Source: an uncultured SAR116 cluster alpha proteobacterium
Lineage (GTDB): Bacteria > Pseudomonadota > Alphaproteobacteria > Puniceispirillales > Marisalimonadaceae
DNA: 41,544 bases
Direction: 5' to 3'
Assembly (NCBI GenBank): GCA_902583415.1
Contig: CACHVW010000005.1
Span: 1 to 41,544, forward strand
The translations under genes and the position numbers were made by a program. The notes beneath the pieces are model-generated. The model was given only the letters and a program-made list of their open reading frames with translations. It searched no databases and was not told the DNA's origin. Below, piece by piece: positions 2,684-41,544 of the stretch (position 1 is the stretch's first letter; the number at the start of each line of letters is the position of its first letter).

Positions 2684-2695
2684 ATGGTCATCAAA

Positions 2696-4027: not shown

Positions 4028-4035
4028 TTTGTTTT

Positions 4036-4341: not shown

Positions 4342-4440
4342 TGTTTCTCCAGAAAAAACCATCTTAAATTTATTACAATTTTAAGTTTTGTATATTATAT
4401 TATTTTTTGCAAATAATAATAAATTTTTGGTGGGGAATTG

Positions 4441-4665
4441 ATGTTTCATATAGCATTTAGAAAAGATGTTTTTCTTAGAGCTTTTAAAATGGCTTTGATA
4501 GTAGGAATTATTTTAGCAATAATTAATCATGGGGATCATATTTTTTTGGGAACAATGACAATAACAAATTGGACTAAAATCTTAATTACTTTTTGTGTGC
4601 CCTTTTGTGTTTCAACTGTTTCCTCTGTTCTTGCAATTAAAAAAGAGCATGTAACAATTAGATGA
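4441..4665 (+). CDS. nrtS: NrtS-like nitrate/nitrite transporter (small membrane protein)
   Basis: A 74-residue protein with two hydrophobic segments (about residues 14-31 and 42-62) separated by INHGDHIFLGTMT. The pattern of a basic N-terminus, RAFKMALIVGIILAIINHGD, and then a second span with VPFCVSTVSSV matches the short NrtS family, described in cyanobacteria as a nitrate/nitrite carrier of about 70-90 residues. The start ATG has GGGGA about 5 bases upstream; a TTG directly before it is unlikely to be the start. It is the first gene of a rightward operon with a DUF3108 protein and aroE. The family assignment is from memory of the motif and was not searched. Transport in this organism is inference. 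Confidence 0.68.
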   Translation: MFHIAFRKDVFLRAFKMALIVGIILAIINHGDHIFLGTMTITNWTKILITFCVPFCVSTVSSVLAIKKEHVTIR

Positions 4666-4678
4666 AAATAATTTGATA

Positions 4679-6316: not shown

Positions 6317-6317
6317 A

Positions 6318-26999: not shown

Positions 27000-27662
27000 A
27001 TGAAAAACATAAATTTTAATATTATTTTTGATTTAGATGGCACTTTAGTTCATTCAGTTCCTGATATGCACCATGCTATAAATAAAACTTTAACTGAATA
27101 TAGTTTAAAAAATATATCTGAGGAAAAACTACAGACTTTTGTTGGTGAAGGTATGCTGTCTTTAACAAAAAAAGTAGTTGATTTTTGTGGTGGAGATAAA
27201 GGTTTATATGAAGTAATTTTCGATAGTTACAGACAAAACTATTCAAAACAACCCTATAAATATAGTACTCTAATGCCTGGAGTAATGGAGACTCTTAATT
27301 TTTTTTATGAGCGAAAAATATTAATGGGCATTTGTACTAATAAGAGACAATTTGTAACTGAAAAATTAGTTCAAGAAATGAATCTAAGTAAATTTTTCAC
27401 CACAATTGTTGGGGCAAGAGATAATATTCCGTTAAAACCAAAGCCAAATATGTTAATACTAACAATGGAGGGTTTTAACACAACAAAAAAGATGTTTTAC
27501 ATGGTTGGCGATACATCAAATGACATTGACGCAGCTAAAGCAGCAAATATAAAATCAATTGCGGTTGCGGGTGGCTACACTGATAAGGATGTAAACAACC
27601 TTGGAGCAACTCACACATTAAAAAAGATGAAAGATATAATCAAACTTCTAGGCTCGTCTTAA
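27000..27662 (+). CDS. gph: Phosphoglycolate phosphatase-like HAD hydrolase
   Basis: HAD-superfamily phosphatase with the nucleophile motif FDLDGTLVHS, motif II CTNKR, motif III lysine in PLKPKP, and motif IV GDTSNDIDAAKAA. The 220-residue length and the helical cap fit Gph/CbbZ (2-phosphoglycolate to glycolate). Its position directly behind rpe is the common arrangement in proteobacteria. The 3' end overlaps the stop codon of the convergent SDR gene by 4 bases. The usual serine in motif II is replaced by Thr-Asn, which is common in the family. Confidence 0.88.
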   Translation: MKNINFNIIFDLDGTLVHSVPDMHHAINKTLTEYSLKNISEEKLQTFVGEGMLSLTKKVVDFCGGDKGLYEVIFDSYRQNYSKQPYKYSTLMPGVMETLNFFYERKILMGICTNKRQFVTEKLVQEMNLSKFFTTIVGARDNIPLKPKPNMLILTMEGFNTTKKMFYMVGDTSNDIDAAKAANIKSIAVAGGYTDKDVNNLGATHTLKKMKDIIKLLGSS

Positions 27663-28579
27663 ATTGGATCCCAGCTAAAAACATCGCCACTTCTCTCATT
27701 AGGTGTCATTGAATTTTTAAACGAGGGAAGTGCTCTTTTGGCAATTTGTTGTGGTGTCCACCCTGATTCTGAATGAATACTTTTTACAGGTCTGTTTTGA
27801 TTATATATAAATAATTCATTCAATCTTGCACTGAAGATTTGTCCACTTACATCTTTAGCAGCCTCTGAAGCTAAAAAAACAGCTATTGGGGCGTTGGTTT
27901 CAGGGGTCATTTTCTTTAATCTTTCAACTCTCTCTTTTTCAGCTTCAGTATTTGAAGGTATAGAATTAGTCATTCTACTCCAAGCAAATGGTGCAATGCA
28001 ATTTGATCTAACATTAAATCTGCTCATATCTAGGGAAATTGATTTTGATAGGCCGGCAATTCCTAATTTTGCAGCTGAGTAGTTTGCTTGACCAAAATTT
28101 CCTATTAATCCTGATGTACTTGTCATATGTACATAGGCTCCTGAATTTTGTTCTCTAAAATACGGAGCAGCGGCCCTGCTTACGTAAAAACTACCATTTA
28201 AATGAACACTTATTACGTCATTCCAATCCGAGGGTTCCATCTTATGGAAAATTGTGTCTCTTAAAATACCAGCGTTATTTATAACAATATCTAATCTACC
28301 ATAAGTATCCAATGCTTTTTTGATTATAAGTTGCGCACTATTCCATGAAGAAACACTATTATTACTAGTTATAGCTTTTCCACCTTTTTGAGTTATTAAA
28401 CCAACAGTTTCTTGAGCTGGAGATTCTGAACCACCTTCGCCAGTTAATGAAACACCTATATCGTTAACAACAATTGAAACTCCTTCTTTTGCAAGGGCAA
28501 GAGCTATTTCACGTCCAATTCCGCCTCCTGCTCCAGTTACAACAGCTACTTTATCCTTTAATCCTAAATCAATGTTCAT
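27659..28579 (-). CDS. Short-chain dehydrogenase, hydroxyacyl-CoA dehydrogenase type
   Basis: Classical SDR of about 306 residues with the cofactor motif VTGAGGGIGREIALALA, the structural NNAG, and catalytic Ser-Tyr-Lys in MTSTSGLIG and YSAAKLG. The insert after the second strand (GVSLTGEGGSESPAQETV) and the C-terminal extension past residue 220 resemble the hydroxyacyl-CoA dehydrogenase domain of multifunctional enzyme type 2. A fatty or branched acyl-CoA substrate is therefore likely but not certain. I use the ATG at 28579, seven bases after AAGGGG, over a TTG two codons upstream. It is the last ordinary core gene before the island. Confidence 0.85.
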   Translation of the reverse strand: MNIDLGLKDKVAVVTGAGGGIGREIALALAKEGVSIVVNDIGVSLTGEGGSESPAQETVGLITQKGGKAITSNNSVSSWNSAQLIIKKALDTYGRLDIVINNAGILRDTIFHKMEPSDWNDVISVHLNGSFYVSRAAAPYFREQNSGAYVHMTSTSGLIGNFGQANYSAAKLGIAGLSKSISLDMSRFNVRSNCIAPFAWSRMTNSIPSNTEAEKERVERLKKMTPETNAPIAVFLASEAAKDVSGQIFSARLNELFIYNQNRPVKSIHSESGWTPQQIAKRALPSFKNSMTPNERSGDVFSWDPI

Positions 28580-28958
28580 AAACAATCCCCTTATTTTAAT
28601 TGTTTATTTATAGTAAGAATTTTTCAAAATCATACCACAACAATATATTTATAAACATTAGAATAATCTTATAATTGAAAATTAATCCTTATATGAAATT
28701 AGATAAATTATGTGGCCTCGTAGCTCATCTGGATAGAGCTCAAAATTCCTAATATTTGGTTAGATGATAAATAGTTATTTTTAAATGAATATTTGTTTTG
28801 TAAATGAAAAATAAATTAAATCATTGTAAGTATTAGTGTTTTTTAATTTTTAAATATTTAAAATTATATTATAAACTAAATTTTCATAATACAATTTCTT
28901 ATAAAAAAATTGACTAATATTATTTACAACACTTCTATTTGAAATAATTTTTATTTAC
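28580..28958. other. Intergenic left boundary of the island
   Basis: 379 bases with no credible gene. It holds the SDR promoter at its left side and the first 5'-half copy of tRNA-Arg (28671-28763). The rest is very AT-rich and I see nothing else supportable in it. Gene content changes from core metabolism to accessory genes here. Confidence 0.6.
28671..28763 (+). repeat. 5'-half copy of tRNA-Arg(CCU) with upstream flank (copy R1)
   Basis: From 28714 the sequence follows the intact tRNA-Arg gene: the first stem differs by one base (GGCCTCG for GGACTCG), the D arm is identical, and the anticodon loop TTCCTAA is kept. Similarity fades in the variable region, with no T arm or CCA end. The 43 bases before it match the flank of copy R2 (30710-30792) better than that of the intact gene, so R1 and R2 are copies of one another. 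It cannot make a functional tRNA. Confidence 0.8.
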
Positions 28959-30611
28959 TCAAATCAAAGCTTTAAAATAATTTGATAAATGTTTTTCATA
29001 TAGTTTCCATTCTTCTGAACTATTTAAGTAAATATTTTTTTTTACTTGAGCAAAGGAGGCTGTGTTTACATATCTTTTCCCTTTAAAAAAATTTTGGCAT
29101 TCATCTTCCCATTTGATCCCTATAAAAGATAATAAATCATTTAGCTCATCATTAAAATTATTAATAAACTTTTCATAAGAAATTGTGAAAATTTGATCAT
29201 TGAAATTGTTGACATAAAAAGACATTATCTCTTTATAAATTCTATAATATTCAATTATGTTTGTTAATTTGTTTGAAAAATTATTCGCATCACCATAGAA
29301 ATTACTCTTGTAGTTTGACCAACAAAGCGGTTTTATGTCTCTTTTAATATGTATTATTTTAACATTTGGAAAAGCATGTGTAATGAACCCAATCCATTTG
29401 AAATTGAGTGGAGTTTTATCAGTAAAAAAGGGAGTTTTAATATCATTCATAAGAACTTTAGAAATATAGTTTTTTTTTAAAAGCTCAATATTATCGTTTG
29501 TTAAATTATCATTGACTAAGTTTAATTTGGAAAGTTCTTTGGTAAAAAAACCTATTTCTCCTAGGGCTGTTATTTTAGTATGTTTTGATAAAACTTGTTC
29601 TATTAAAGAAGTTCCTGATCTTGGCATTCCTAATATAAAAATAGGTTGTATAGGATTACTATTTATGTTTTTCATAAACTTAATTTTATTTTTATTTTCA
29701 AACTTCCGTTTAATTATTGGTAATAGTTTTTTTTCATTTTCTATGTCATATGGATTTAGTTTCTCTTTTAAATTATTAGCTTTTTTATAATATAAAAATG
29801 ACTTATCATAATTTTCTAAATCATTAAAAATTTTTCCTAGTGTGAAATAAAGATCAACTTTCCTAACTTCAGAGAGCGCGTTTTGGTCAATTGAAAAAAT
29901 TTTATCTAAAATTTCATCTTTCTCTTTAAACTTTTTTACAAGTCCTATTAAAGAAAATACATCCGTACTATTTGGATACAATTCTAAATATTCCATTAAA
30001 TAATTTATACCAGTCTCAAATTGACCCATACTTATATAAGTATTCCCTAAATCTTTAAGATAATTTACTTGACATCTATCAATTGAAATAGCTTTTTTGA
30101 GATTTTTGATTGCAAGTTCATGTTTATTTATTTGAATATAAATTTTAAATAAGTTGTAAAAAGCCGAGTGAGAATTTTTATCTATAAGAACTAATTGTTT
30201 TAATAGTTTTATCGCTTTTTTATAATCTTCACTTTCTATGTAAATTATTGATAAATTTAAATATGGCAAAGTAAATTTATTATTATGTGAAATTGCTTTC
30301 TCATAGAAATATATAGATTTTTTAAAATTTTTTTCTTTAAAATAGATTATCCCTAAATTATTTAATGGATCAACATATCTATTATTAAGATCAAAAGATT
30401 TTTGGAATGAGTTTTTAGCTTCCTGATATTTATTTAAAGACATTTGAATTATACCTTGTAAATTAAAAGCTTTTGAAGAATTAGGATATTTTTGTATTAA
30501 TAGCCGAATTTCAATTAAAGCTTGATCAAAATTTTGTGTATTTAAAAATTTGACTATTGGTTGAAATTTTTGATTTACAGGATTTCTTTTTACTAACAAT
30601 TCTTTATGCAT
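28959..30611 (-). CDS. TPR-repeat sulfotransferase
   Basis: A 550-residue protein. Residues 1-290 form about seven tetratricopeptide repeats (for example the segment from SKAFNLQGIIQMSLNKYQEA onward). Residues 320-550 form a PAPS-dependent sulfotransferase domain, with the 5'-phosphosulfate loop GMPRSGTSLIEQV (330-336 core) and the 3'-phosphate site IIHIKRDIKPLCWSNY (R424, S432). TPR-sulfotransferases of this type are common in marine alphaproteobacteria and resemble tyrosylprotein sulfotransferases; the acceptor could be a protein, glycan or small molecule. It has no signal peptide. The gene stands alone between two partial tRNA-Arg copies, as though carried as a single-gene cassette. Codon and base use are extremely AT-rich. 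Confidence 0.85.
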   Translation of the reverse strand: MHKELLVKRNPVNQKFQPIVKFLNTQNFDQALIEIRLLIQKYPNSSKAFNLQGIIQMSLNKYQEAKNSFQKSFDLNNRYVDPLNNLGIIYFKEKNFKKSIYFYEKAISHNNKFTLPYLNLSIIYIESEDYKKAIKLLKQLVLIDKNSHSAFYNLFKIYIQINKHELAIKNLKKAISIDRCQVNYLKDLGNTYISMGQFETGINYLMEYLELYPNSTDVFSLIGLVKKFKEKDEILDKIFSIDQNALSEVRKVDLYFTLGKIFNDLENYDKSFLYYKKANNLKEKLNPYDIENEKKLLPIIKRKFENKNKIKFMKNINSNPIQPIFILGMPRSGTSLIEQVLSKHTKITALGEIGFFTKELSKLNLVNDNLTNDNIELLKKNYISKVLMNDIKTPFFTDKTPLNFKWIGFITHAFPNVKIIHIKRDIKPLCWSNYKSNFYGDANNFSNKLTNIIEYYRIYKEIMSFYVNNFNDQIFTISYEKFINNFNDELNDLLSFIGIKWEDECQNFFKGKRYVNTASFAQVKKNIYLNSSEEWKLYEKHLSNYFKALI

Positions 30612-30709
30612 TTAGAAACATTAGTTTATATATATTTATAAATCAAAATATAATAAAGCCAATACTTAATATTGATTTTAAGTCATTTGTAAATATAAAG
30701 AATTATCTA

Positions 30710-30804
30710 ATAATTGAAAAAAAATCTTTATATGATATCAGGTTAAGTGTGTGGCCTCGTAGCTCATCTGGATAAAGCCAAAAGATTCCTAACAAAACGG
30801 TTCG
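30710..30804 (+). repeat. 5'-half copy of tRNA-Arg(CCU) with upstream flank (copy R2)
   Basis: From 30753 it matches the first stem (GGCCTCG) and the D arm (GTAGCTCATCTGGATA) of the tRNA, with GAGC mutated to AAGC. The anticodon loop ATTCCTAA is still readable, after which only GGTTCG is reminiscent of a T loop. The upstream flank (ATAATTGAAAA, then TTTATATGA) is shared with R1 at the same distance. R1 and R2 together bracket the sulfotransferase gene as direct repeats about 2.04 kb apart. Confidence 0.78.
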
Positions 30805-30871
30805 TCTGATTTGATAAAATAACTCAATAATATCAGTAGTTTATTAGATACAAATATGTGAATAAAGTTTA

Positions 30872-30888
30872 TGTGAATGATTTGTGAA
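30872..30888 (+). repeat. 17-bp direct repeat, left copy
   Basis: TGTGAATGATTTGTGAA, repeated exactly at 31630-31646. The pair encloses the intact tRNA and the broken ribbon-helix-helix-like gene. The left copy is itself preceded by a related GTGAATAAAG. Confidence 0.6.
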
Positions 30889-30937
30889 TAGTAAAGGTGG
30901 TGTTTTTGAGGATATTTTGATAATAAACACCTAATAA

Positions 30938-30965
30938 TTGATAGTTCCTTAAAAGTAAATATAAT
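30938..30965 (+). promoter_or_regulatory. Promoter of the tRNA-Arg gene
   Basis: TTGATA at 30938-30943, a 16-base spacer, then TATAAT at 30960-30965, ending 16 bases before the tRNA. This is a near-consensus housekeeping promoter at the distance expected for a tRNA transcript with a short leader. Confidence 0.7.
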
Positions 30966-30981
30966 GGTGTTTGTGGTATTT

Positions 30982-31058
30982 GGACTCGTAGCTCATCTGG
31001 ATAGAGCACCAAATTCCTAATTTGGGGGTAGCAGGTTCGAGTCCTGCCGAGTTCACCA
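30982..31058 (+). tRNA. tRNA-Arg, anticodon CCU
   Basis: A complete 77-base cloverleaf. The acceptor stem GGACTCG pairs with CGAGTTC (one G-T pair), the D arm stem is GCTC/GAGC, and the anticodon stem CCAAA/TTTGG holds the loop TTCCTAA with CCT at 31016-31018. The T arm is GCAGG/CCTGC with loop TTCGAGT. Discriminator A is followed by an encoded CCA. This tRNA reads AGG. It is the intact member of a set of five related sequences and is the probable integration target of the island. Confidence 0.96.
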
Positions 31059-31088
31059 CATTTAAAATCCCCATATAACTTCAAATTT

Positions 31089-31110
31089 GAGTTCTAAAGA
31101 CTGTTCCTAA
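31089..31110 (+). repeat. Conserved segment downstream of the tRNA
   Basis: GAGTTCTAAAGACTGTTCCTAA follows the intact tRNA by 30 bases. A close match (two mismatches) lies at 33282-33303, 29 bases after the 3'-end copy R3. The shared spacing shows that the 3' flank was duplicated together with the tRNA end. Confidence 0.65.
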
Positions 31111-31144
31111 AATAGAGTGTATGATTGAACTTTAGACATTAAAA

Positions 31145-31174
31145 AACCTCTCTATATTCAGAAATAGAAAGGTT
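31145..31174. terminator. Bidirectional hairpin terminator
   Basis: AACCTCTCTAT pairs with ATAGAAAGGTT (10 of 11 positions) around an eight-base loop, with a run of As before it and CTTTATT after it. It can end the tRNA transcript from the left and the broken gene from the right. Confidence 0.7.
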
Positions 31175-31202
31175 CTTTATTCATTATAAAATGGTTTAAA
31201 AA

Positions 31203-31660
31203 CTAATGTCTAACCATAGACTTAATAACATTCAAATCACTCATATCTTCTTTCATTTTCGTATTCTGATTCGATACCAGAAGCCTTGCACCTTCTTCAA
31301 TCAAGTTTGAGAGAGTTTTGTGTCGATAATCTGCAATCTGTCTTGTTGCTTCTTTTAGTGATGCATCCACATGGAAATAAATTGGTTTTTTTTAATAAAT
31401 TAACATTGTTTTGCTTTATCTACAAATATACCACTGGTGAATCTTCTAAACTCAACTTCTTGTTGGTTGGCTTGGTGTTTCTTTGCACGAACCTGTGCTA
31501 GCGCGTATCACGCATATCAACAAAAGGTTCGTTTCTTGGGATAGTCGTGCGTTCTAGTTGTGCGAACTTTCTTGTACTCACTTCCTGTTTTAGTCGTTCT
31601 TGATTTTCAAACTCTCCTTTTTTCGATCGTGTGAATGATTTGTGAAGGTTAAGTATTCAA
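31203..31660 (-). pseudogene. Broken ribbon-helix-helix-like gene, possible mobile-element relic
   Basis: Coding signal runs leftward in three consecutive frames. Segment one (about 31660 to 31500) reads HKSFTRSKKGEFENQERL and continues to VDMRDTR before a TAG. Segment two (about 31504 to 31400) reads ALAQVRAKKHQANQQEVEF and continues to a TAA. Segment three (31385 to 31203) reads PIYFHVDASLKEATRQIADY, then HKTLSNLIEEGARLL, to a TAG. The last segment has the strand-helix-helix pattern of ribbon-helix-helix DNA-binding proteins, and an 8-A run with an in-frame stop just before it marks the break. No start codon opens it. Base composition is visibly richer in G and C than around it. It may be the remains of a regulator or mobilisation gene of the element that built the island; it could also be two genes. 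Confidence 0.6.
31630..31646 (+). repeat. 17-bp direct repeat, right copy
   Basis: An exact copy of 30872-30888, 758 bases away, at the 5' edge of the broken gene. Confidence 0.6.
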
Positions 31661-31787
31661 ATTTAACATGACCTTTAATTTCTCATTTAGTATGGTTCAT
31701 GGCAAATAAGATTTAATAAAATCAGGTGAATTTTAAGAATTGTATAGTTTTTTATATGACATGAATTTCTTATAAAATAGTATCGAT

Positions 31788-32771
31788 CTAATCATTTGTT
31801 TTTGAAATACAATCAATTAAAATTTTCAATGATCTGTCATAATCAGGTAAGGCAAATAATAAGGTATTAATATTTAATTTACGAACTTTTAAAAGAAAAT
31901 TTTTCAGACCCTCTACATCTGTTATTAATTCTTCAATACCGGCACCACTTTTTATAAGATGCGAATTTTTCTTGCTAAAATAACCCTTTAAAGGATTACT
32001 ATAAGATAATTCACTAATAAAATTTTCTGCAGCCTTTTGATCTACATCTTTATCTAAAAGAAATTTGTAATAGTCTTTTGCCTCAGACAATGTGTTTCCA
32101 ACAAATAATGACATTGCGCTAGAAACGTTTTTAGAACCAACCACATTAAGTAAATGATTTTTTCTAATAGTTGTAAATAAAGAGTGAGCGTATTTTTTTG
32201 CAAATTCACGTCCCTCTTTGGAGAAAGCAGCACACATAATTTCTGTTCTTTTATTTTGAATGTCACTTCCAATTATTGAGCTAAGTGTTTTATAATGAGC
32301 TTTTTCTGCACTTTTAAATCTATCAGTCCAAGTGGCTGCAAATTCATATACTTTCTTAGACGAATCTAAATATTCTTTTTTAAAGTAATCAAATTCATCC
32401 TTTTTCCATCCCCCAACAATGTTGATGGCGAATCTATTTTTAAACTCAATATTTAATCTAGAAGCTACGTGTGCAACTAATTCAGGTTCATAAGCAAAGG
32501 TGGAAAATGTTCCAAAAATTTTTGAATATTTAGTTTTTGATAGTAGAAATGAGGATAGGGTAATTGACTCAATTGCATCTCCTGTAATTTCTTTTTCTCC
32601 AGAATACCCTTTCCATCGAGAAATTGGAACAAAATTAAAAGGGTTATTTGGTAATGATTTTTCTACAATTTTCAGCCTTTCAGCAATTTTTTCTAAAGTA
32701 GGTTTCCATTGTGGGTTTTTCGTCATGACTAGACCACCGGTTACATTCATTCCAAAAAGACCAAATTTCAT
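31788..32771 (-). CDS. RutA-like flavin-dependent monooxygenase (luciferase-like family)
   Basis: FMN-dependent enzyme of the bacterial-luciferase-like superfamily, 327 aa. FVPISRWKGYSGEKEITGD (from about residue 46) and RFAINIVGGWKKDEFDYF (about 132-149) match the layout of RutA and related enzymes that open heterocycles or attack C-S bonds, which have MIKLRGFGG and RFGVNLVTGW at these places. LNINTLLFALPDYDRSL near the C-terminus corresponds to the usual ending. It stands alone in its cassette between the tRNA and the first 3'-end copy and is read leftward, away from the biosynthetic genes. Substrate unknown. A reduced-flavin partner is not seen nearby. Confidence 0.8.
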   Translation of the reverse strand: MKFGLFGMNVTGGLVMTKNPQWKPTLEKIAERLKIVEKSLPNNPFNFVPISRWKGYSGEKEITGDAIESITLSSFLLSKTKYSKIFGTFSTFAYEPELVAHVASRLNIEFKNRFAINIVGGWKKDEFDYFKKEYLDSSKKVYEFAATWTDRFKSAEKAHYKTLSSIIGSDIQNKRTEIMCAAFSKEGREFAKKYAHSLFTTIRKNHLLNVVGSKNVSSAMSLFVGNTLSEAKDYYKFLLDKDVDQKAAENFISELSYSNPLKGYFSKKNSHLIKSGAGIEELITDVEGLKNFLLKVRKLNINTLLFALPDYDRSLKILIDCISKTND

Positions 32772-33516
32772 TCTTTAAACCTTATCTACCTTTATTAATA
32801 AACTTCAATAATTACAAAAATTGCCATTAGCATATTATTACACCAAAATCATATATTTTTTTTAAGTAAAATTCTATTTCCTGAGATCACTAAAAAATTA
32901 AATCACATTTAAAAATAATGTTTTCAAAGTCTAAAATTTTTAAAAAATTAAACAAGAGTTAATTGATAATTAATTACTCCAAATTTTTTTTATTATGAGC
33001 AATCCAATTTTCCATTAAATATATTAACTCATTCATAATGATAAAATTTTATTTGTACAAACTTGCATATTTTACATTTAACAGACTTTAAAAATCATAA
33101 ATAAATTTATTAACGATTTATAATTGATACTTTTTATTTTAACTGTTTTATAGAAGATAATTCTTTGATATAAGATTATACAAATTTAGGAGATGAAATA
33201 CTTTTTTTCTAATCTTAAGGTTATAGTTTAGATACCTATTGCTGTCACCACAATTCAAACCCTTGTATTCTTATATTTAATGAGTTCTAAAGAGAGTTCC
33301 TAAACTATCTAATATGGTTGGATATCCTCCTAGTTTTATATGCTAGTAAATTCATCAAATATTGACCTGGTTTGGGCGGGGTAGCTCTATCAAAAACGAG
33401 TAAATACTGAACCATTAATTGTTGAAAATGTATCACTTGTTTTATATCAAAATAATTAATAATATAGCAAAAACATAGCAATAACAAATTAATAAATTTA
33501 TAGGAATCTAAAACTA
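32772..33516. other. Intergenic region with a 3'-end tRNA copy
   Basis: 745 very AT-rich bases between the divergent monooxygenase and NodB-like genes, with no credible gene. It must hold promoters for both. It contains the 3'-end tRNA copy R3 (33243-33303) and a short GC-richer patch at about 33366-33400 that stands out in composition but that I cannot assign. Confidence 0.55.
33243..33303 (+). repeat. 3'-end copy of tRNA-Arg flank (copy R3)
   Basis: TGTCACCACA corresponds to the TTCACCACA end of the tRNA. It is followed at the same distance as in the intact locus by GAGTTCTAAAGAGAGTTCCTAA, which matches 31089-31110 with two mismatches. The tRNA body itself is lost. The match of both pieces and the spacing make chance unlikely. 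Confidence 0.68.
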
Positions 33517-34233
33517 ATGGACAACGTCTTTCCATTTACTTTTAACAAAATTGAAGAATATTATGCTGCTGCAATTGAACTTGGTTATGAAGTTATGACA
33601 TGCTTTGATTATACTCAAAGAAAGAAAAACTTACCTCCACTAACAATTGTAAATAGGGTTGACATAGATTTTTCTATGAGCAAAGCAGAAAGACTTTGCA
33701 AAATATTCAATCAAATTGGTATTAAAGCAACTTTTTTTGTTAGGTTACATGCACCTGAATACAATCTATTTTCATTTGAAAATTACCGAATACTTAAATA
33801 TATTCAAAAATCAGGACATGAAATTGGATATCACAGCGAAATTATTGATCAATCTGCTATTTGGAAAGAGAGTGCTGATGATTGTTTATTAAGAGACATT
33901 GACATCCTTAATAGATTAATTGAGACAAATATACAAGGTATAGCTAGCCATGGCGGATTGACAGGACTTAACAATTTTGACTTTTGGAAGAATAAAAAAG
34001 CTAAAAATTTTGGTGTATTATATGAAGCTTATGAAGAAACAGGTGCATTTAACCTTTATAAAAATTCTTTCTACATAAGTGACTCTCAATGGACAGCTTG
34101 GAAATGTTATGACCGTGGAAAATTGCAGGTTAATGATAAGAGAACACCACTAGAGCACTTTAAGAATTTGCATTCTAAAATATATATGTTAATTCATCCT
34201 GATACATATTACGACAGACATATTTATGAATAA
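33517..34233 (+). CDS. NodB/WbmS-like polysaccharide-deacetylase family protein
   Basis: A 238-residue protein of the NodB-homology fold. Motif 1 is NRVDIDFS with D49 and D51, followed by GIKATFFVRLHAPEYN, then motif 2 GHEIGYHSE with H106 as the likely first metal histidine. The second histidine expected four residues later is not there (SEIID follows), as in WbmS-like proteins found in surface-polysaccharide loci. Late in the sequence MLIHPDTYYDRH may supply another ligand. Hydrolysis of an N-acyl or other amide group is the family reaction; activity here is uncertain. The gene ends 8 bases inside the next gene, so the two are coupled. First rightward gene of the biosynthetic region. Confidence 0.72.
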   Translation: MDNVFPFTFNKIEEYYAAAIELGYEVMTCFDYTQRKKNLPPLTIVNRVDIDFSMSKAERLCKIFNQIGIKATFFVRLHAPEYNLFSFENYRILKYIQKSGHEIGYHSEIIDQSAIWKESADDCLLRDIDILNRLIETNIQGIASHGGLTGLNNFDFWKNKKAKNFGVLYEAYEETGAFNLYKNSFYISDSQWTAWKCYDRGKLQVNDKRTPLEHFKNLHSKIYMLIHPDTYYDRHIYE

Positions 34234-35167
34234 AATGCTAAATATTTCAACTTTGTTAACCAAACTTAATGTTGATTACAAACTCGTTGGAAAATATTCA
34301 AAATTTAATGGTTTTTCTTCTTTTTTTGAGCAAACAGGTAAATCATGTACTTTTATAAAAGAAATAAATCCTTACACAATTGAAGTTTTAAGTAAAAGTG
34401 TTGCCCGCATATTTATAGTAAATGAACTTCCATTAATCGAAGATGATTGCAAAACCTTCATAGTAGTAAAGGATCCTCGTCGAGTTTTTTTTACATTGGT
34501 ACGAGCTGTAAATAAGCAAGCACCAATTAAAGAGACTTTTATCCATCCAACATCTATAGTTTCACCAAATGCAAAAATAGGACAAAATGTATATATAGCT
34601 GAGTATTGCATAATAGGTGAATGTGAAATTGGAAACTCAACAAACATTGGGTCCTACTCAAAGATCCATGATGGTGTTTTAATTGGAAACTGCGTAGATA
34701 TCCATGACCATTGCAACATTGGTGGAATTGGTTTAGGACATGTTTGGGAAGATAATAAATATGTAAATCAAACACATATAGGTACAGTATTAATAGAAGA
34801 CTTTGTTGAACTTCTCTCCTATACTAATGTAGGTAAAGCCACATTAGGAACAACTAGAATTGGGAAAGGAACTAAAATAGATTTTCGCTGTAGCATAGGT
34901 CATAACGCTAATATAGGCGAACATAATTTGATTATGGCTAACTCTATTATAAGTGGTTCTGTCAATCTTGGTTCAAAAAATATTGTTGGAGCAGGCACTA
35001 TTTTTCGAGAAACTATTAAAGTAGGTTCTGAAAATTTTTTTGGAATGCACAGTTCTGTCATAAAAAACACTAATGACAAAGAAATTTGGTACGGTTCACC
35101 AGCAAAATTTCAGGGGAAAAGAACTAAAATAATGGAATTAATATTTGGAATACGCAATAACTTTTGA
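34226..35167 (+). CDS. LpxD-like left-handed beta-helix acyltransferase
   Basis: A 313-residue protein with an N-terminal globular part (1-100) and hexapeptide repeats forming a left-handed beta helix (105-300): HPTSIVSPNAKIG, AEYCIIGECEIG and further turns. KIDFRCSIGHNANIGEHN aligns with the catalytic region of LpxD, with H226 as the candidate catalytic histidine, and GGIGLGHVWEDNKYV occupies the loop where LpxD has its GFG segment. LpxD moves a 3-hydroxyacyl chain from acyl carrier protein to an amino sugar. This copy is divergent, lies away from any lpx genes, and sits next to a carrier-protein gene, so it may transfer an acyl group between that carrier and an amine. It overlaps the previous gene by 8 bases. 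Confidence 0.8.
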   Translation: MNKMLNISTLLTKLNVDYKLVGKYSKFNGFSSFFEQTGKSCTFIKEINPYTIEVLSKSVARIFIVNELPLIEDDCKTFIVVKDPRRVFFTLVRAVNKQAPIKETFIHPTSIVSPNAKIGQNVYIAEYCIIGECEIGNSTNIGSYSKIHDGVLIGNCVDIHDHCNIGGIGLGHVWEDNKYVNQTHIGTVLIEDFVELLSYTNVGKATLGTTRIGKGTKIDFRCSIGHNANIGEHNLIMANSIISGSVNLGSKNIVGAGTIFRETIKVGSENFFGMHSSVIKNTNDKEIWYGSPAKFQGKRTKIMELIFGIRNNF

Positions 35168-35216
35168 TATTAATTTGTTACCTGACTTTGCTGTTCAAGA
35201 CTGTTTTAATCTTTGA

Positions 35217-35247
35217 TAGTAAAATAAATTAAAGCTACTTTTTACTA
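35217..35247 (+). other. Possible hairpin before the carrier-protein gene
   Basis: TAGTAAAA can pair with TTTTACTA around a 15-base loop. It is AT-only except for two pairs, so it is weak; it may mark an mRNA processing point or a poor terminator after the acyltransferase gene. Confidence 0.25.
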
Positions 35248-35324
35248 TAAGCTTATTTGATCTCAACAAGAAAAGGTCATGATGAAATAAAAATAATTTT
35301 AAAAACATTTTAAAGGATAATTAC

Positions 35325-35621
35325 ATGAACCTAAATGAATCTATTGATTTAATTTCAAGTTTAGTAAAAACAATTTTTGACGAAGGTAATTTTAGAGGAA
35401 ATATTGATAAAAACACACCCTTATTTGGTAACGAAAGTATATTAGATTCAATGTCTCTTGTTCAATTATGTTTAGCACTTGAAGATAAAGCAGGTGAAAT
35501 GGGGTTTGAGTTTGATTGGAATTCTGAAAAAGCAATGTCTAAAGCAGAAGTGATGTTCAGATCTATTGAATCTTTGGGTAATGAGTTTTACACTCAATTT
35601 AAAAAAAGTTCTGGTAAGTAG
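35325..35621 (+). CDS. Free-standing acyl/peptidyl carrier protein
   Basis: A 98-residue acidic, helical protein. ESILDSMSLVQLCLALED holds the phosphopantetheine attachment site, with S42 in DSM (DSL in most carriers). Helix 1 (INLNESIDLISSLVKTIF-like) and the hydrophobic third-helix region with SIESLG fit the four-helix carrier fold. It is longer at the C-terminus than house-keeping AcpP and lacks the usual strongly acidic DSLD helix, which suggests a dedicated carrier for the adenylation enzyme encoded at 39793-41256. AAGGA lies 7 bases before the ATG. It is separated from the LpxD-like gene by 157 bases and from the next gene by the 3'-half tRNA copy R4. Confidence 0.8.
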   Translation: MNLNESIDLISSLVKTIFDEGNFRGNIDKNTPLFGNESILDSMSLVQLCLALEDKAGEMGFEFDWNSEKAMSKAEVMFRSIESLGNEFYTQFKKSSGK

Positions 35622-35655
35622 AATGTTTTTCATTATATAAAAAATCGATTATTTT

Positions 35656-35704
35656 ATTCCTAATTGGGAGGCAACAGATTAAAAACCTGTCGTGTTCACC
35701 ACAA
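35656..35704 (+). repeat. 3'-half copy of tRNA-Arg(CCU) (copy R4)
   Basis: ATTCCTAATTGGGAGGCAAC begins in the anticodon loop of the tRNA. It continues through a decayed T arm (ACAGA against CCTGT) to CGTGTTCACCACA, which matches the acceptor 3' strand, discriminator and CCA plus two flanking bases. No 5' half precedes it. It starts at the same ATTCCTAAT where the 5'-half copies R1 and R2 end, which places the likely crossover in the anticodon stem-loop. Confidence 0.8.
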
Positions 35705-35803
35705 CTAAAATTTATTTAAAATTAAATATTAAAATGTCATATTATATGACCTACCTGTAAATTATAGTAATTACTAAGTTTAAAAAATTGAGTTTTATAA
35801 GTT

Positions 35804-37021
35804 ATGGATAAAATCAAAACAAAAGCGATTATAAGAAAATATTCCTTAATACCTAGTAAGGCAAGTAAAGCAATATTAAAAAGTATCCGAGAAGATAAAA
35901 ATTTTATTTCAACTTTTAAGGATTTTATTACTGAAATTGATTATAAAAATCTAAAGAATAAATATAAAGAAAAGGTTTTATACCTAAAAAATAATAAAAT
36001 TGTTATTTTACCTAAAAATTTACCATTTTTATATCTGATTAAGGATGAAACAGCTGACTTTAGCTGGAAAATAAACGAACCTTCAACAATATCAAATAAT
36101 AATACAGATCTTGTTCTTAAAACAACTAATGTTGAAGGTGTCAATCCCTCATTATTATCTATTATTTTAAATTTAGTTAAAAAGGAATTGCATAATCATC
36201 ATCATTATCCAGAGTTTTTAGAAATAAATAAAACCAGCAAATCATTAATTTTAGAACTTTTTAACAAAGTAAAGTTTGCTTCACGATTATCTGATATCAC
36301 ACCTTCTTTGAATAGTTGCATTCAAAAAGCTATCAAAAGTAAAAAAATTAATATTTTAACTCCTTTATGTCCAGACTATTCAAATATAGATTTAGGCAAA
36401 GGATTATACACTCTTACTTTTGATGGTTTAGGTTCAGACATAGGCGTTACGGCAAAAAGATTATTAGAAAACTTGGAATGTTTGCATTCAGTTTTCAAAC
36501 AACATGACATAAAAGTAACTCACACCGCTGCAATTGGTGACTTTGAAGCTTTATCAGAGGATACTTGTAAAAGGGTAAATTTATCGCGTAAAAAATTCAT
36601 TGAACATTTAATAGTTAGTCAAAAAAAACTGAAAGAATATGCTGGAGAAAAACTTAAAACAATACTTTTTACGGATTTATGTAATGGATTGGATAATTGG
36701 ATCAAAATTCATTCCAAATATTATGAAATGTTGTTAAATAAAGATTTTGGCAAAATTAATCTTTCAAACAATGATATTGAAAATATCAGTAATTCTAGAA
36801 AGCCTCTATTATATAGATGGTTTGGAAAAATTTCTGACGAAGAACTTTTAAAAGTTGTTTTATGGCAGGGAGCAGAGTATGCTACTATGGGCCATATTAT
36901 TGACGAGGTTATAGAAAATCCAGTCATAATTGGGGCAGATCATGTTAAAATGGCTCCTTTTTATGGAATTAGTTCAAGTGTACCTATATTATATTTAACT
37001 TCTAACTACATAAGGAATTAA
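35804..37021 (+). CDS. Unrecognised 405-residue biosynthetic-cluster protein
   Basis: I do not recognise this family with confidence. The N-terminal third is lysine-rich and ends near a HNHHHYPEF patch (130-138). A central domain carries ILTPLCPDYSNID (CPDY at 189-192), LYTLTFDGLGSDIGVTAKRL (201-220) and AAIGDFEALSEDTCKRV (242-258). The C-terminus ends VIIGADHVKMAPFYGI and VPILYLTSNYIRN. It is soluble, with no signal or membrane span. Cysteines, aspartates and histidines in these blocks look like active-site candidates. It is one base from the 2-oxoglutarate oxygenase gene, so the two are probably translated together. A very distant similarity in layout to PvcA/isonitrile synthases, which also pair with such oxygenases, is possible but weak. 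Confidence 0.6.
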   Translation: MDKIKTKAIIRKYSLIPSKASKAILKSIREDKNFISTFKDFITEIDYKNLKNKYKEKVLYLKNNKIVILPKNLPFLYLIKDETADFSWKINEPSTISNNNTDLVLKTTNVEGVNPSLLSIILNLVKKELHNHHHYPEFLEINKTSKSLILELFNKVKFASRLSDITPSLNSCIQKAIKSKKINILTPLCPDYSNIDLGKGLYTLTFDGLGSDIGVTAKRLLENLECLHSVFKQHDIKVTHTAAIGDFEALSEDTCKRVNLSRKKFIEHLIVSQKKLKEYAGEKLKTILFTDLCNGLDNWIKIHSKYYEMLLNKDFGKINLSNNDIENISNSRKPLLYRWFGKISDEELLKVVLWQGAEYATMGHIIDEVIENPVIIGADHVKMAPFYGISSSVPILYLTSNYIRN

Positions 37022-37022
37022 A

Positions 37023-37640
37023 ATGCTTCTTAATTATTATAAAGAGAGAGAAAGCTATATTAATGATGGGACTATTATGCTCAATCAACATAATAATATT
37101 TTTACACAAACGGAACTACAAAATCTAGAAAAATTAGCTGATCAACTCCCATTTGAACATGTAGAAATAGGTGATGCTGATGAGCCAAATTATTTAGAAG
37201 TCGGAAGACTAATAACTGATATAGATAAACCTAAAATAGTTAATCAAACAATATCAAAACAAGTTATTGGAATAGTAAGTTCAAAAGAAAAAATGGAATT
37301 CTACAAATTTTTGTTAGATAAACCAGAATTACATATTAGAAGAATGCAATATAATGTAATGGCAGAAAATTGTTTTGTTGGTTTACATCTAGACACTGAC
37401 TCCAACCCAGATTACCTCGTAGCTTGCGTTGTTCAACTAGGAGGTAACTTCATAGGTGGCGATTATGTTGTATATGGTGGAGGAATTCCTCCAAGATCTC
37501 TTTCTCCAACAAAGTTTTCTGTAATTTTTAGTAATTGCAAGTACGAACATGAAGTTACAAAAGTTAAATCTGGAATGAGAAAATCCCTCGTGTTTTTTTT
37601 AAGTACTAATAATGGTAAAAATTCAAGAATTAGAGAATAA
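37023..37640 (+). CDS. 2-oxoglutarate/Fe(II)-dependent oxygenase
   Basis: A 205-residue protein with the double-stranded beta-helix facial triad: H122 and D124 in VGLHLDTDSNPDY, and H176 in NCKYEHEVTKV. R186 in SGMRKSLVFFLS is the likely 2-oxoglutarate anchor, ten residues after the distal histidine as in prolyl-4-hydroxylase-like enzymes. RRMQYNVMAENCFVG and GGDYVVYGG fit the flanking strands. The family hydroxylates free or carrier-bound amino acids, among other substrates. AAGGAA lies before the ATG. It is one base after the 405-residue gene and 3 bases before the flavin monooxygenase gene, so it sits in the core of the cluster. Confidence 0.8.
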   Translation: MLLNYYKERESYINDGTIMLNQHNNIFTQTELQNLEKLADQLPFEHVEIGDADEPNYLEVGRLITDIDKPKIVNQTISKQVIGIVSSKEKMEFYKFLLDKPELHIRRMQYNVMAENCFVGLHLDTDSNPDYLVACVVQLGGNFIGGDYVVYGGGIPPRSLSPTKFSVIFSNCKYEHEVTKVKSGMRKSLVFFLSTNNGKNSRIRE

Positions 37641-37643
37641 GAA

Positions 37644-38720
37644 ATGAACTTAGGTTATTTTACTCAACCTTTTCATCCAACTACTAAAATGCTCTCTCAA
37701 TCTCTTGAAGAAGACTTTGAAGCTGGCGTAATAGCTGATAGAAATGGATATTCAGAAGCTATTTTTGGAGAACATGCAACAGATGCTTATGAAACCATTA
37801 CATCTTCTTTAACTTTTATAGCTAGCTTATGTTACAATACTAAAAACATAAAACTTGGTACAGGAACAATTAATATACCAAACACTCATCCAGCTTTTGT
37901 TGCCTCAACGGTCTCAATGCTTGATCATATGCTTAAAGGCCGTTTATTATTAGGTGTTAGTATGGGCGCGCTTGCATCTGATTGGGAAATATTTGGGACT
38001 TATGACTTAAACAAACAAGCAATGTTTGAAGAATCTCTGCATCAAATTCTTCAGTTATGGAAAACTAAGCCACCTTATGATTTAGAGGGAAATTTTTGGA
38101 AAATAACAACAAAAAAGACTATGAATCTCGAACTAGGCCTAGGAGAAATAATGAAACCCTTTCAACAACCTCACCCAGAAATATTGTGTACAGCCTTGTC
38201 ACCTAACTCAGTTGGATTAAGGAAGGCTGGACAAAAAGGTTGGTCTCCAGTTTCATCTAATTTTATTCAAGAACATTATGTATCTTCACACTGGAAACAA
38301 TATTCTGAAGGTTCTAAATCAGTTAACATAAACGCAGACACAAAAAAATGGCGTGTGGCTAAAATGGTTTTTGTAAATGATGATAATGAAAAAGCATTAA
38401 AGTATGGAAAAGGTCTTGATGGGCCATATGCAAAATGCATAAATCAAATTATTAAAAAATTAAAAGCAGCCAACAAATTAAATTTTCTAAAAGAAAATGA
38501 ACATCAATTAGACGACGAAATTACACTTGACTATTGTCTAAGTAAGTTGGTTATAGCAGGAGATCCTAGTTCAGTTAAGGATCAAATATATAAATTTGCA
38601 GAGAAAACTGGAACTTTTGGAACCTTATTATATGTTGGAGTTGATTGGCTTGATAAAAAACTTGCTAAAAACTCTATGGAGCTTATGGCTAACAAAGTCA
38701 TTGCAGACATGCACATTTAG
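37644..38720 (+). CDS. Luciferase-like flavin-dependent monooxygenase
   Basis: A 358-residue LLM-class enzyme of the limonene-monooxygenase/alkanal-monooxygenase-like subgroup. The N-terminus reads LGYFTQPFHPTTKM, then DRNGYSEAIFGEHATDAYET, followed by KLGTGTINIPNTHPAFVAST and GRLLLGVSMGALASDW, all standard for FMN-binding TIM-barrel enzymes of this class. SPNSVGLRKAGQKGWSPVSS is the later flavin-phosphate region. It would need reduced FMN from a separate reductase. Such enzymes act as N- or C-hydroxylases or Baeyer-Villiger oxygenases in natural-product pathways. It is distinct from the RutA-like enzyme at 31788-32771. It follows the 2OG oxygenase gene by 3 bases. Confidence 0.83.
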   Translation: MNLGYFTQPFHPTTKMLSQSLEEDFEAGVIADRNGYSEAIFGEHATDAYETITSSLTFIASLCYNTKNIKLGTGTINIPNTHPAFVASTVSMLDHMLKGRLLLGVSMGALASDWEIFGTYDLNKQAMFEESLHQILQLWKTKPPYDLEGNFWKITTKKTMNLELGLGEIMKPFQQPHPEILCTALSPNSVGLRKAGQKGWSPVSSNFIQEHYVSSHWKQYSEGSKSVNINADTKKWRVAKMVFVNDDNEKALKYGKGLDGPYAKCINQIIKKLKAANKLNFLKENEHQLDDEITLDYCLSKLVIAGDPSSVKDQIYKFAEKTGTFGTLLYVGVDWLDKKLAKNSMELMANKVIADMHI

Positions 38721-38755
38721 AATGTATTTAAATTATATTATTTCAGGGAAACATA

Positions 38756-39613
38756 ATGAAACAACTTCAAACAATTAATTTTTTTGAGGGTAAATGGATG
38801 GAAGGCAACCCAAAACTAATTGGCCCACTTAGCCATGGATCTTGGATGGGGTCTCCTGTATTTGACGGTGGAAGATGTTTTGACAGTCTTGCACCTGATC
38901 TTAATGAGCATTGCAAGAGAGTTATAAAATCAGCTAAAGCTATGCTTATGGATCCAAAAGTTTCTTCAGAGGAAATTTTTGATATATCAAAAGAAGGAAT
39001 TAAAAAATTAGGATCAAGTAAAGATTTATACATTAGACCATTAATTTGGGCTGAAGATAGTATGGGACTTCTAAGATGTGACCCTCATAGTGCTAAGTTT
39101 TGTGTTTCAATAATAGAAATGCCTATGCCCGATGAAAATGGTTTTTCTGCATGTGTTACGAAATTTACCAGACCTACTGCACTTTCTGCCCCTACTGATG
39201 CTAAAGCTGCATGTCTGTATCCAAATGGAGCAAGAGCTATGCAATATGCATTCGAAAAAGGTTTTGATAATGCTATAGTGTTAGATCCATCGGGCTATAT
39301 TGCTGAATTTGCTTCATCAAATATTTTTATAGTTATTGATAATCAACTATATACGCCAGAAGATAATAAAACTTTTTTAGCAGGTATAACTAGAAAAAGA
39401 GTTATAGAATTATGTAAAGAGTTAGATATTGTTGTGAATGAGACTAAAATTACTTTAAAAATGTTAAAAGAATCAAATGAAATATTTAGCACTGGGAATT
39501 TTGGTAAAATAATGTATCTAAATAATTTAGATGGCATAACTTTAAAACCAGGAATATTTTATAAAAAACTAAAAAAAGCATATTGGGACTATTCTAGTAA
39601 TTTTTTACTTTAA
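38756..39613 (+). CDS. Class IV aminotransferase (branched-chain type)
   Basis: Fold-type IV pyridoxal-phosphate enzyme of 285 residues. The Schiff-base lysine is K150 in TDAKAACLYPNGARAM. E184 in AEFASSNIFIV lies 34 residues later, as in branched-chain aminotransferase. FLAGITRKRVIEL and STGNFGKIMYL complete the cofactor site, and the N-terminal HGSWMGSPVFDGGRCFDS is the substrate loop. IlvE, D-amino-acid aminotransferase and aminodeoxychorismate lyase share this fold; the two-residue insertions here favour IlvE-like transamination. In this position it may make or remove the amino group of a non-standard amino acid. GGGA is 6 bases before the ATG. A copy of a housekeeping gene recruited to the cluster is possible. 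Confidence 0.8.
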   Translation: MKQLQTINFFEGKWMEGNPKLIGPLSHGSWMGSPVFDGGRCFDSLAPDLNEHCKRVIKSAKAMLMDPKVSSEEIFDISKEGIKKLGSSKDLYIRPLIWAEDSMGLLRCDPHSAKFCVSIIEMPMPDENGFSACVTKFTRPTALSAPTDAKAACLYPNGARAMQYAFEKGFDNAIVLDPSGYIAEFASSNIFIVIDNQLYTPEDNKTFLAGITRKRVIELCKELDIVVNETKITLKMLKESNEIFSTGNFGKIMYLNNLDGITLKPGIFYKKLKKAYWDYSSNFLL

Positions 39614-39718
39614 AAATACACATAACTCACCATAAACGGTTTTACAAACTTAGTAATTTAATTAATAATTAATTGAGAATTTATTTTTTATATAAAATTA
39701 AGTAATCTCGAGGCACAC

Positions 39719-39799
39719 ATGTTAGAAATTGGCGAATATCTAGAAAACGGAGTTGCTTGCCTATTTAAACTACCTTCATTGGATATAAAAATATGCTAG
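39719..39799 (+). CDS. Possible 26-residue peptide overlapping the adenylation gene
   Basis: A short frame MLEIGEYLENGVACLFKLPS plus six residues ending in cysteine. GAGG lies 5 bases before its ATG. Its stop TAG lies just after the start codon of the adenylation gene (ATGCTAG), an arrangement that would couple translation of the two. It could be a leader peptide or a true small product; it may equally be chance. It has no recognisable family. Confidence 0.3.
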   Translation: MLEIGEYLENGVACLFKLPSLDIKIC

Positions 39800-41256
39800 A
39801 TATAAGAGATTTTTATCAGAAAATTTGGGACAATATCCAATATTCTGATAAACCATTCTTTATTGATAGTTTGAAGAATGAAAAAAAATATAAAGATTTA
39901 TTTCATGACATAAAAAAAGTATCACAAATTTTTTTAAAAAAAACAAATCAACTAACTGTTATTTTAGCTAAGAAAAATTATGAACACTATTGTTGTATTA
40001 TTAGCACGGTAATATCTGGTAACACTTGGATTCCATTAAGCCTTGAAAGTCCAATCGAACGTAATTTACAAATCATAAAAAATATAAAACCAAAACATTT
40101 TATCACTGACCAAGAACTCACTCCAGAAATAAAAAGAGATTTAAAAAAATTAAAAATTAATATCTACGATATATCGGATTGTCTTAACGGAATTAAAGTA
40201 GACGAAAGTATAACTTTCAATTTTAATTATAGAAGATCTTCATTGAGCATGATTTATTTTACATCAGGATCTACCGGCACTCCAAAGGGTGTTAAAATAT
40301 CTCAAGAAGGTCTATCAACAATAGTACCAAAAATTGTTCAACTGCTAGGAATTTCTAAAGAAATTTGGGGTGATTATCATGATTTGAGCTTTGTAATTTC
40401 AATACCCATTCTTTTTTCGTGTATCTATAGTGGAGGGACAATTTATTGTGCCTCTAATAAATTAGACCAGTTTATGCCTTTGCAAAGTTTGATAAAAAAT
40501 AAAGTTTCTTGTTTAGTTACTGTTCCCTCAACTCTTGCTCGCATCTCTAAAGACAAGCATTTTGATCAATTATTTTCTTCCTTAAAAACTATTGTATCTT
40601 GTGGTGAACCATTTCCCATTGATTTAATGAGCTTATATCTAAAAAATAAAAACATCCAACTGTTTAATTTTTATGGATCAACTGAAGTGACCGCATGGAT
40701 TTTTTATCATCTTTGTAAAAAAGAAGATATTTCAAAATATTCGAATTATGGCTATGCACCAATTGGGAAGAAGATAGAAGGAAATGAAATTATAATTACT
40801 GACAAAAATTTACTTTTAGTAAGAGGTCCACAAGTAACACCCGGTTATTTGGGGAAAGATAAAAAAGCACATGTTCAAAAATATATGAATAAAGATTGGT
40901 TTTCCACTGGAGATATTGTTGAGAAAATCGATGATGTGCTAATTTGTAAAGGACGACTTGATAACCAGATAAAACTTAATGGATATCGTATCCACTTAAT
41001 GGATATTGAAACACAAATCAAAAAGATTAAAAAAATTGAAGACTGTATGTGTGTTGTTGAAGAGATAAACAGCCAAAAAATAATTACAGCAATATTAGTT
41101 ACTCAATTAGACATAACGGTTTTAGAACTAAGAGAACTACTCAAAAATAAATTACCAAATTATATGTCTCCTAGAAAAGTTTTTTGTGTTGCTAAAAAAC
41201 CAATAAATAAAAATGGAAAATTAGATAGGGTTAAATTAAAAGATTTAGTATTGTAA
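39793..41256 (+). CDS. Free-standing amino-acid adenylation enzyme (AMP-binding, DltA-like)
   Basis: Adenylate-forming enzyme of 487 aa that activates a carboxylic acid with ATP and loads it on a carrier thiol. Core motifs in order: A3 IYFTSGSTGTPKGVKIS (154-170), A4 region YHDLSF with D197 (the aspartate that normally binds the amino group of an amino-acid substrate), A5 NFYGSTEVTAW (292-302), A7 STGD (371-374), A8 GRLDNQIKLNGYRIHLMDIE (387-406), and A10 NKNGKLDR with catalytic K476. No condensation or carrier domain is attached, so it resembles DltA and single-residue loading enzymes. The partner is probably the carrier encoded at 35325-35621. The substrate cannot be read reliably. The 3' end converges on the AcpS-like gene with 10 bases between the stops. 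Confidence 0.86.
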   Translation: MLDIRDFYQKIWDNIQYSDKPFFIDSLKNEKKYKDLFHDIKKVSQIFLKKTNQLTVILAKKNYEHYCCIISTVISGNTWIPLSLESPIERNLQIIKNIKPKHFITDQELTPEIKRDLKKLKINIYDISDCLNGIKVDESITFNFNYRRSSLSMIYFTSGSTGTPKGVKISQEGLSTIVPKIVQLLGISKEIWGDYHDLSFVISIPILFSCIYSGGTIYCASNKLDQFMPLQSLIKNKVSCLVTVPSTLARISKDKHFDQLFSSLKTIVSCGEPFPIDLMSLYLKNKNIQLFNFYGSTEVTAWIFYHLCKKEDISKYSNYGYAPIGKKIEGNEIIITDKNLLLVRGPQVTPGYLGKDKKAHVQKYMNKDWFSTGDIVEKIDDVLICKGRLDNQIKLNGYRIHLMDIETQIKKIKKIEDCMCVVEEINSQKIITAILVTQLDITVLELRELLKNKLPNYMSPRKVFCVAKKPINKNGKLDRVKLKDLVL

Positions 41257-41266
41257 TCAAATGCAA

Positions 41267-41544
41267 TTAAAAATATGAAATTATAGTATTACATATAACT
41301 AAATCTTTACTGTATCCAATAGATAAATCAATTTTATAACAACTTTCCATTGGTAAAAAATCTTTAAGAAATTTAATTCCCTTCTTTGACAAAAATAATT
41401 TGTTTATATTATGTTTTGTTTTAAGAATTTCTATATCTTGCCAAGTTATAAACTTTTGATTAGGCGTGTTAAACGCTTTATAAAAAGATTCTTTTGCGGA
41501 AAATCTAGATGCTAAATATAGTGCAAAGTTTTTTTTCTAGCTTA
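41267..41544 (-). CDS. AcpS-type 4'-phosphopantetheinyl transferase (partial, possible frameshift)
   Basis: The C-terminal three quarters of an AcpS-like enzyme. FALYLASRFSAKESFYKAF carries the Mg-binding glutamate and lysine of the AKE motif. TWQDIEILKTKHNINKLFLS matches the W-x-DIE segment, and KIDLSIGYSKDLVICNTI replaces the usual LSHT-like strand. The enzyme transfers phosphopantetheine from CoA to a carrier serine and probably activates the carrier in this cluster. The frame is interrupted by a TAG at the window edge just before an 8-A run (41529-41536). Reading seven As joins the frame to KLEKN, the expected continuation. The true N-terminus is beyond the window. It converges on the adenylation gene. 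Confidence 0.72.

Follow-up and report, generated by a model that had tools for sequence, protein, structure and literature searches.

The locus considered here raises two questions: what an unnamed 405-residue protein does at the end of a marine bacterial contig, and whether the biosynthetic genes around it form one pathway. The window, 41,544 nucleotides of DNA from an uncultured SAR116 alphaproteobacterium, is the entire contig C5 of a 1.5-Mb genome that is 68% complete. A preliminary description had recognised, at positions 33517 to 41544, a compact thiotemplated cluster without condensation or ketosynthase domains that could be assigned to no named cluster type. Such a gene set is indeed present and we could match it to no named type either; the genes listed were found as open reading frames (ORFs) at the places given, those for a NodB-like protein and a 2-oxoglutarate (2OG)-Fe(II) oxygenase scoring slightly under the Pfam cut-offs, assignments that are weak yet acceptable. 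We read the region as stacked-island cargo at a tRNA-Arg(CCT) gene, encoding a small-molecule pathway with a conserved pair at its core, namely the 405-residue protein (X405) and the 2OG oxygenase. We give this reading about an even chance.

X405 is encoded at 35804 to 37021 on the plus strand. The preliminary description listed it as an unknown, and it is unnamed in Pfam and NCBIfam, the two curated libraries searched: no match was found in Pfam (E 0.1) or in NCBIfam, with PF05141 (isonitrile synthases) and PF16715 (cyclodipeptide synthases, CDPSs) included. The PF16715 model matched none of 200 genomes and no control genome either, and that search is uninformative. A tblastn search detected a full-length homologue, 33% identical, on a plasmid of Massilia forsythiae (L007), and a third protein, 28-29% identical, is present in the Burkholderiaceae genome G805 (L010); the latter gave no PF05141 match at E 1. 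X405 was found in 2 of the 393 Burkholderiaceae genomes searched. No relatives were found in the other 135 genomes searched of the order to which the window belongs, and two scans of genome contigs, two of viral contigs and a phage search returned nothing. We discarded as spurious five weak matches in members of the same order (E 1e-4), which lay within guaA ORFs.

A gene for a 2OG oxygenase adjoins or lies near the X405 gene in all three loci. The window enzyme (37023 to 37640, plus strand) scores 24.2 bits with Pfam against a cut-off of 27 and matches over its full length 6n1f, a solved 2OG-Fe(II) oxygenase of the same family (E 3.5e-33). Its H122-x-D124...H176 and R186 residues are invariant across the three homologues. 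The Massilia enzyme is 39% identical to that of the window and is encoded about 3 kb or less from X405, and the G805 enzyme is 34% identical and encoded at most 1.2 kb away. This 2OG family (E 1e-25) was found in 2 of 304 sampled Burkholderiaceae, the same two genomes that carry X405; the profile was built partly from the Massilia and G805 proteins, but its absence from the remaining genomes is still informative. The oxygenase also occurs without X405, on three plasmids and in G124, a genome from the order of the window, where it is encoded next to a desaturase-like protein. As far as we found in the open-access literature, the combination of X405 with this 2OG oxygenase is undescribed, and its recurrence in three distantly related bacteria suggests a small-molecule pathway not yet explored.

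The wider neighborhoods of the pair differ. The Massilia locus encodes a desaturase-like protein, two nonribosomal peptide synthetase (NRPS) proteins, a penicillin acylase, a phosphopantetheinyl transferase and transporters. The G805 locus encodes a desaturase-like protein (38% identical to that of Massilia), a short-chain dehydrogenase/reductase (SDR), AzlC/AzlD-like proteins and a GNAT protein; no adenylation (A) or carrier gene was seen in the 20 kb that were read. This gene content suggests an amino-acid-like product. Of the cluster put forward in the preliminary description, X405 and the 2OG gene recur jointly in two other lineages; the A, carrier, LpxD-like, NodB-like and aminotransferase genes are not found with them. 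This answers in part the condition, set in that description, that the proposal would fall if the genes never co-occurred elsewhere. As a separate observation, the desaturase-like protein recurs with the 2OG oxygenase (L043 8982-10645, minus strand; L010 7651-9458, minus strand; L007 17073-19949, plus strand); the copies are 38-52% identical, and their annotation is either hypothetical protein or a weak FA_desaturase assignment.

AlphaFold (AF2) models were computed from the three-sequence X405 alignment with the window protein and, separately, the G805 protein as targets. The target homologues are 29% identical, and both models share the one alignment and so are not fully independent. For the C-terminal ~265 residues the models predict a Rossmann fold like that of isonitrile synthases and CDPSs. 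A Foldseek search of the PDB placed the isonitrile synthase PIsnA (9dhm) first for both models (E 7.8e-4 and 1.6e-3, probability 1.00). Next came CDPSs, with many matches, and after them tyrosyl-tRNA synthetase and other class Ic aminoacyl-tRNA synthetases (aaRSs). The TM score to the isonitrile synthase, 0.52-0.54 on the target, indicates a common fold, for predicted models only. The agreement of two targets is good evidence that X405 belongs to this fold class, but with E values of ~1e-3 and models of medium confidence it is not proof.

Several findings weigh against our reading of the locus, and those that concern X405 itself are as follows. The AF2 models are good only for residues ~140-400, the N-terminal ~135 residues being poorly modeled. 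Profile comparison of X405 with the isonitrile synthases by hhalign, with whole and with trimmed alignments, gave probabilities of 0.5-0.9%, whereas in a control the same isonitrile-synthase alignment picked up a remote relative (L015) at 95.5%. The lysine of the FPxKS motif (K80), invariant in 10 aligned isonitrile synthases, is a tyrosine in all three X405 proteins (CPDYS, placed against FPxKS, after strand 1, by inspection). Because the hhalign probability is below 1% and the invariant lysine is replaced by tyrosine, we regard X405, on the basis of its models, as a member of the fold class that lies outside the isonitrile synthase family.

It is nevertheless worth weighing whether X405 is a true isonitrile-forming (or N-formyl-forming) enzyme with an isonitrile-bearing product. 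The fold matches to PIsnA and PvcA, a P-x-x-P-x-x-S motif seen by inspection at the place of FPxKS, and the 2OG oxygenase partner, which PvcA-type enzymes also have (of another 2OG fold class), would all suit this explanation. It is, however, unlikely in view of the missing profile support and the lost lysine, to which further invariant residues lost by inspection can be added, and the GNAT and AzlCD genes of G805 suggest a free amine. About equally improbable is a CDPS-like X405 that moves an aminoacyl group from a tRNA or carrier to an amine. In each of the Foldseek searches CDPSs ranked second by number of PDB matches, and a carrier or an NRPS is encoded in two of the three X405 loci; yet isonitrile synthases headed both searches, X405 is ~170 residues longer than the matched CDPSs and G805 has no carrier within the 20 kb.

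Two observations on proteins related to isonitrile synthases stand apart from X405. The L015 protein (1195-2037, minus strand), a 281-residue alphaproteobacterial protein that is sub-threshold to PF05141 but reaches 95.5% with the isonitrile synthases by hhalign, represents a second divergent family, with TDTHARLNG where others show SDG. An isonitrile-synthase-like gene of Agrobacterium (L022 5872-6987, plus strand) lies by genes for a TRAP transporter, a ROK protein and a phosphosugar isomerase, an odd setting for an isonitrile pathway.

The building block of the pathway can be approached through the free-standing A enzyme (39793 to 41256, plus strand), which scores well over the Pfam cut-off for AMP-binding. 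The Asp235 column was read from an alignment that includes PigI-type and further free-standing A enzymes; in this protein it holds a valine (Val201), with the sequence SFVISIPILF in place of the xFDxSxxxxF or FDLSTFDLF of amino-acid A enzymes; the ten-letter code is VIPTVCFAWK. The preliminary description had this aspartate conserved as D197, but the residue taken for it is probably the aspartate of HDLSF, four residues upstream. Its other key residue, K476, is correctly the conserved A10 lysine (the K517 position). A domains that activate keto acids usually have Asp235 exchanged for an aliphatic residue, often valine (PMC10949194, PMC5238615), and the A enzyme conforms to that pattern and not to the Asp235 of amino-acid enzymes. 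Because the Asp position is valine, the amino-acid loading proposed earlier is contradicted, and because keto-acid A domains typically carry an aliphatic residue at 235, an acid without a normal α-amino group is the better prediction. Such a keto acid could be supplied by the class IV aminotransferase (38756 to 39613, plus strand), a BCAT-type (branched-chain) protein that matches PRK13356 in NCBIfam at 346.6 bits (cut-off 262) and Aminotran_4 over the Pfam cut-off. The A enzyme illustrates how a single misread specificity residue alters the predicted building block.

Within the order, the search for relatives of this protein gave as the closest two A enzymes of a genus-mate, G026. They are 37-38% identical to it, have the codes VIPTICFPWK and NLPTVCFAWK, and carry Val or Asn at 235. 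A valine at this position would also fit an α-isocyano acid, which has no free amine, as expected if X405 formed isonitriles; however, the first of the G026 enzymes shows Val235 although no X405 is visible there.

The carrier (35325 to 35621, plus strand; 98 residues) has the DSM serine motif attributed to it but is only weakly recognisable, with no Pfam match, a sub-threshold match to DltC (E 0.0014) and no match in a plasmid search. The AcpS-type phosphopantetheinyl transferase (41267 to 41536, minus strand) was likewise correctly identified (PF01648, 30.7 bits; cut-off 25), its N terminus being lost at the contig end. The acpS frame is broken near that end (41537-41544), adjoining a run of eight A, and the contig end may be an assembly artefact. 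The weak resemblance of both A enzyme and carrier to Dlt proteins raises D-alanylation, or a Dlt-like housekeeping process, as an explanation. We consider it highly improbable, since the A enzyme reaches 193 bits where the DltA cut-off in NCBIfam is 476 and has Val for Asp, no DltB or DltD is found among the ORFs of the region, and the location is a variable island; the preliminary description had named such a role as one that would undo its proposal.

Evidence for the island comes from tRNA sequences. An intact tRNA-Arg(CCT) gene, the island anchor, lies at 30982 to 31058 on the plus strand; Rfam found nothing besides tRNA. Local alignment revealed three remnants of the gene, all on the plus strand: two 5' halves to its left, at 28714 to 28763 (score 36) and 30753 to 30792 (score 27), and a degenerate 3' half, running from the ATTCCTAAT core to CCA, between carrier and X405 at 35656 to 35703 (score 26). 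The scores of 26-36 compare with a maximum of 16 over 20 shuffled windows, and the anticodon-loop core ATTCCTAA is common to all tRNA-Arg(CCT) fragments. Integration events recurring at the anticodon loop would produce such a pattern. In G026 the flank is as in the window (tkt, pgk, gap, rpe, phosphatase, SDR and tRNA-Arg genes), followed by a gene for a luciferase-like monooxygenase (LLM) 89% identical to its counterpart here and then by different cargo: A, A, Antibiotic_NAT, acyl carrier protein (ACP) and DUF4910 genes (L042, which is G026:C6:77000-83900, at 593-6774), with a 3'-half tRNA remnant between the two A genes (L042 ~2349-2397). The tRNA remnants and the alternative cargo of G026 show a variable site with stacked islands at tRNA-Arg(CCT), and the block singled out in the preliminary description crosses at least one old junction.

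Two features of this site were absent from that description, the tRNA-Arg remnant within the region and the LLM/RutA-like oxidoreductase gene (31788 to 32771, minus strand), which has Pfam and NCBIfam matches and whose 89% identical copy holds the same place in G026. Among 40 congeners it is present in the window genome and G026 and absent from the other 38; because it is limited to the same two congeners as the closest A-enzyme relatives, it probably belongs to the same island. A TPR-sulfotransferase gene (28959-30611) between the two 5'-half remnants is missing at this site in G026. No integrase was recognised among the ORFs of 27000-41544, and the contig stops inside the island. The tRNA-Arg site is a hot spot at which A/carrier cargo is exchanged among close relatives of one genus.

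That 33517-41544 is a single unit, as first described, is not demonstrable, because the att-like remnant separates the NodB-like, LpxD-like and carrier genes from the genes from X405 to the A enzyme. To the points already raised against a pathway centered on X405 must be added that this remnant weakens the case for one pathway, that the A enzyme may use another carrier past the contig end, and that the partner set is not the same in any of the three X405 loci. Island stacking could accordingly have joined two unrelated pathways, an LpxD/NodB/carrier acylation (e.g. of a surface sugar) and an X405/2OG/LLM/aminotransferase/A pathway, and in G026 the right-hand segment has its own A and ACP genes behind a similar remnant. 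We consider this rather less probable than a single pathway: the eight genes from that for the NodB-like protein to that for the A enzyme are co-oriented with small intergenic gaps, the sole visible carrier that the A enzyme could use is encoded in the other segment, and the window stops at the contig end. Promoter and terminator scans gave a signal no higher than in shuffled sequence.

Three further proteins are encoded in the region. The LLM flavin monooxygenase (37644 to 38720, plus strand; PF00296, 103 bits) has as its nearest solved relative 3,6-diketocamphane 1,6-monooxygenase (4uwm, E 5e-28). The LpxD-like left-handed β-helix acyltransferase (34226 to 35167, plus strand) exceeds the Pfam cut-offs for Hexapep and LpxD-like families well, and the active-site His region of LpxD could be aligned. 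The NodB-like protein of the polysaccharide deacetylase superfamily (33517 to 34233, plus strand) has the motifs VDID and GHEIGYH and scores 21.8 bits with PF01522, below the cut-off of 23.1; a sequence search gave weak matches only, mostly haloarchaeal.

Gene content, the X405-2OG association, the predicted fold, Val235 and the tRNA remnants are computed results; all reactions, and one product for both segments, are what we infer. On the best reading, X405 and the 2OG enzyme would tailor an amino acid, and the A, carrier and LpxD-like proteins would perform an acylation with a non-amino acid. X405 would act on the amino or aminoacyl group of the amino acid, and the 2OG enzyme would oxidise its substrate or product. 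The aminotransferase would provide an α-keto acid, to be loaded by the Val235 A enzyme onto the carrier after activation of the latter by AcpS, and the LLM enzyme may oxidise the loaded acid. The LpxD-like enzyme, whose family draws on acyl-ACP donors, would pass the acyl group on to an amine, and the NodB-like protein, acting as an amidohydrolase, may strip an N-acyl group.

The kinds of enzyme around X405 are already known, and the probability that X405 itself represents a new enzymatic branch is considerable. The stronger proposal, that the aaRS-derived fold has in X405 the founder of a third biosynthetic branch, next to isonitrile synthases and CDPSs, and that X405, with its dedicated 2OG oxygenase, marks a cluster class whose key enzyme Pfam and NCBIfam miss, is tentative, and we think it somewhat more likely to fail than to hold. 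If X405 works as an enzyme of the predicted fold, it would add a new activity to a superfamily from which two very different natural-product reactions have come so far, the making of isonitriles and the tRNA-dependent making of dipeptides; it would also be a marker for clusters now annotated as hypothetical proteins.

Among known systems, the PF05141 enzymes PvcA, IsnA and PIsnA resemble X405 in predicted fold and in having a 2OG oxygenase neighbor within a biosynthetic locus. X405 differs from them in lacking a Pfam match or profile similarity, in the tyrosine at the catalytic-region lysine and in an extra N-terminal part of ~135 residues, and its 2OG partner is of the 2OG-FeII_Oxy_3 class, not TauD-like as in PvcA-type systems. 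CDPSs may share the predicted class Ic aaRS-type Rossmann fold, but X405 is longer, has no Pfam match and finds CDPSs ranked under the isonitrile synthases. Isonitrile lipopeptide clusters of the ScoA-E type likewise combine an A enzyme, a carrier and an Fe/2OG enzyme, whereas the window has no NRPS and its 2OG enzyme is of another family. The DltA/DltC and PigI/PigG pairs resemble the window in pairing a separate A enzyme, with K517 kept, with a small carrier, but the window has Val and not Asp at 235. Where PigI clusters have a downstream oxidase or polyketide synthase, the window has an LpxD-like acyltransferase instead.

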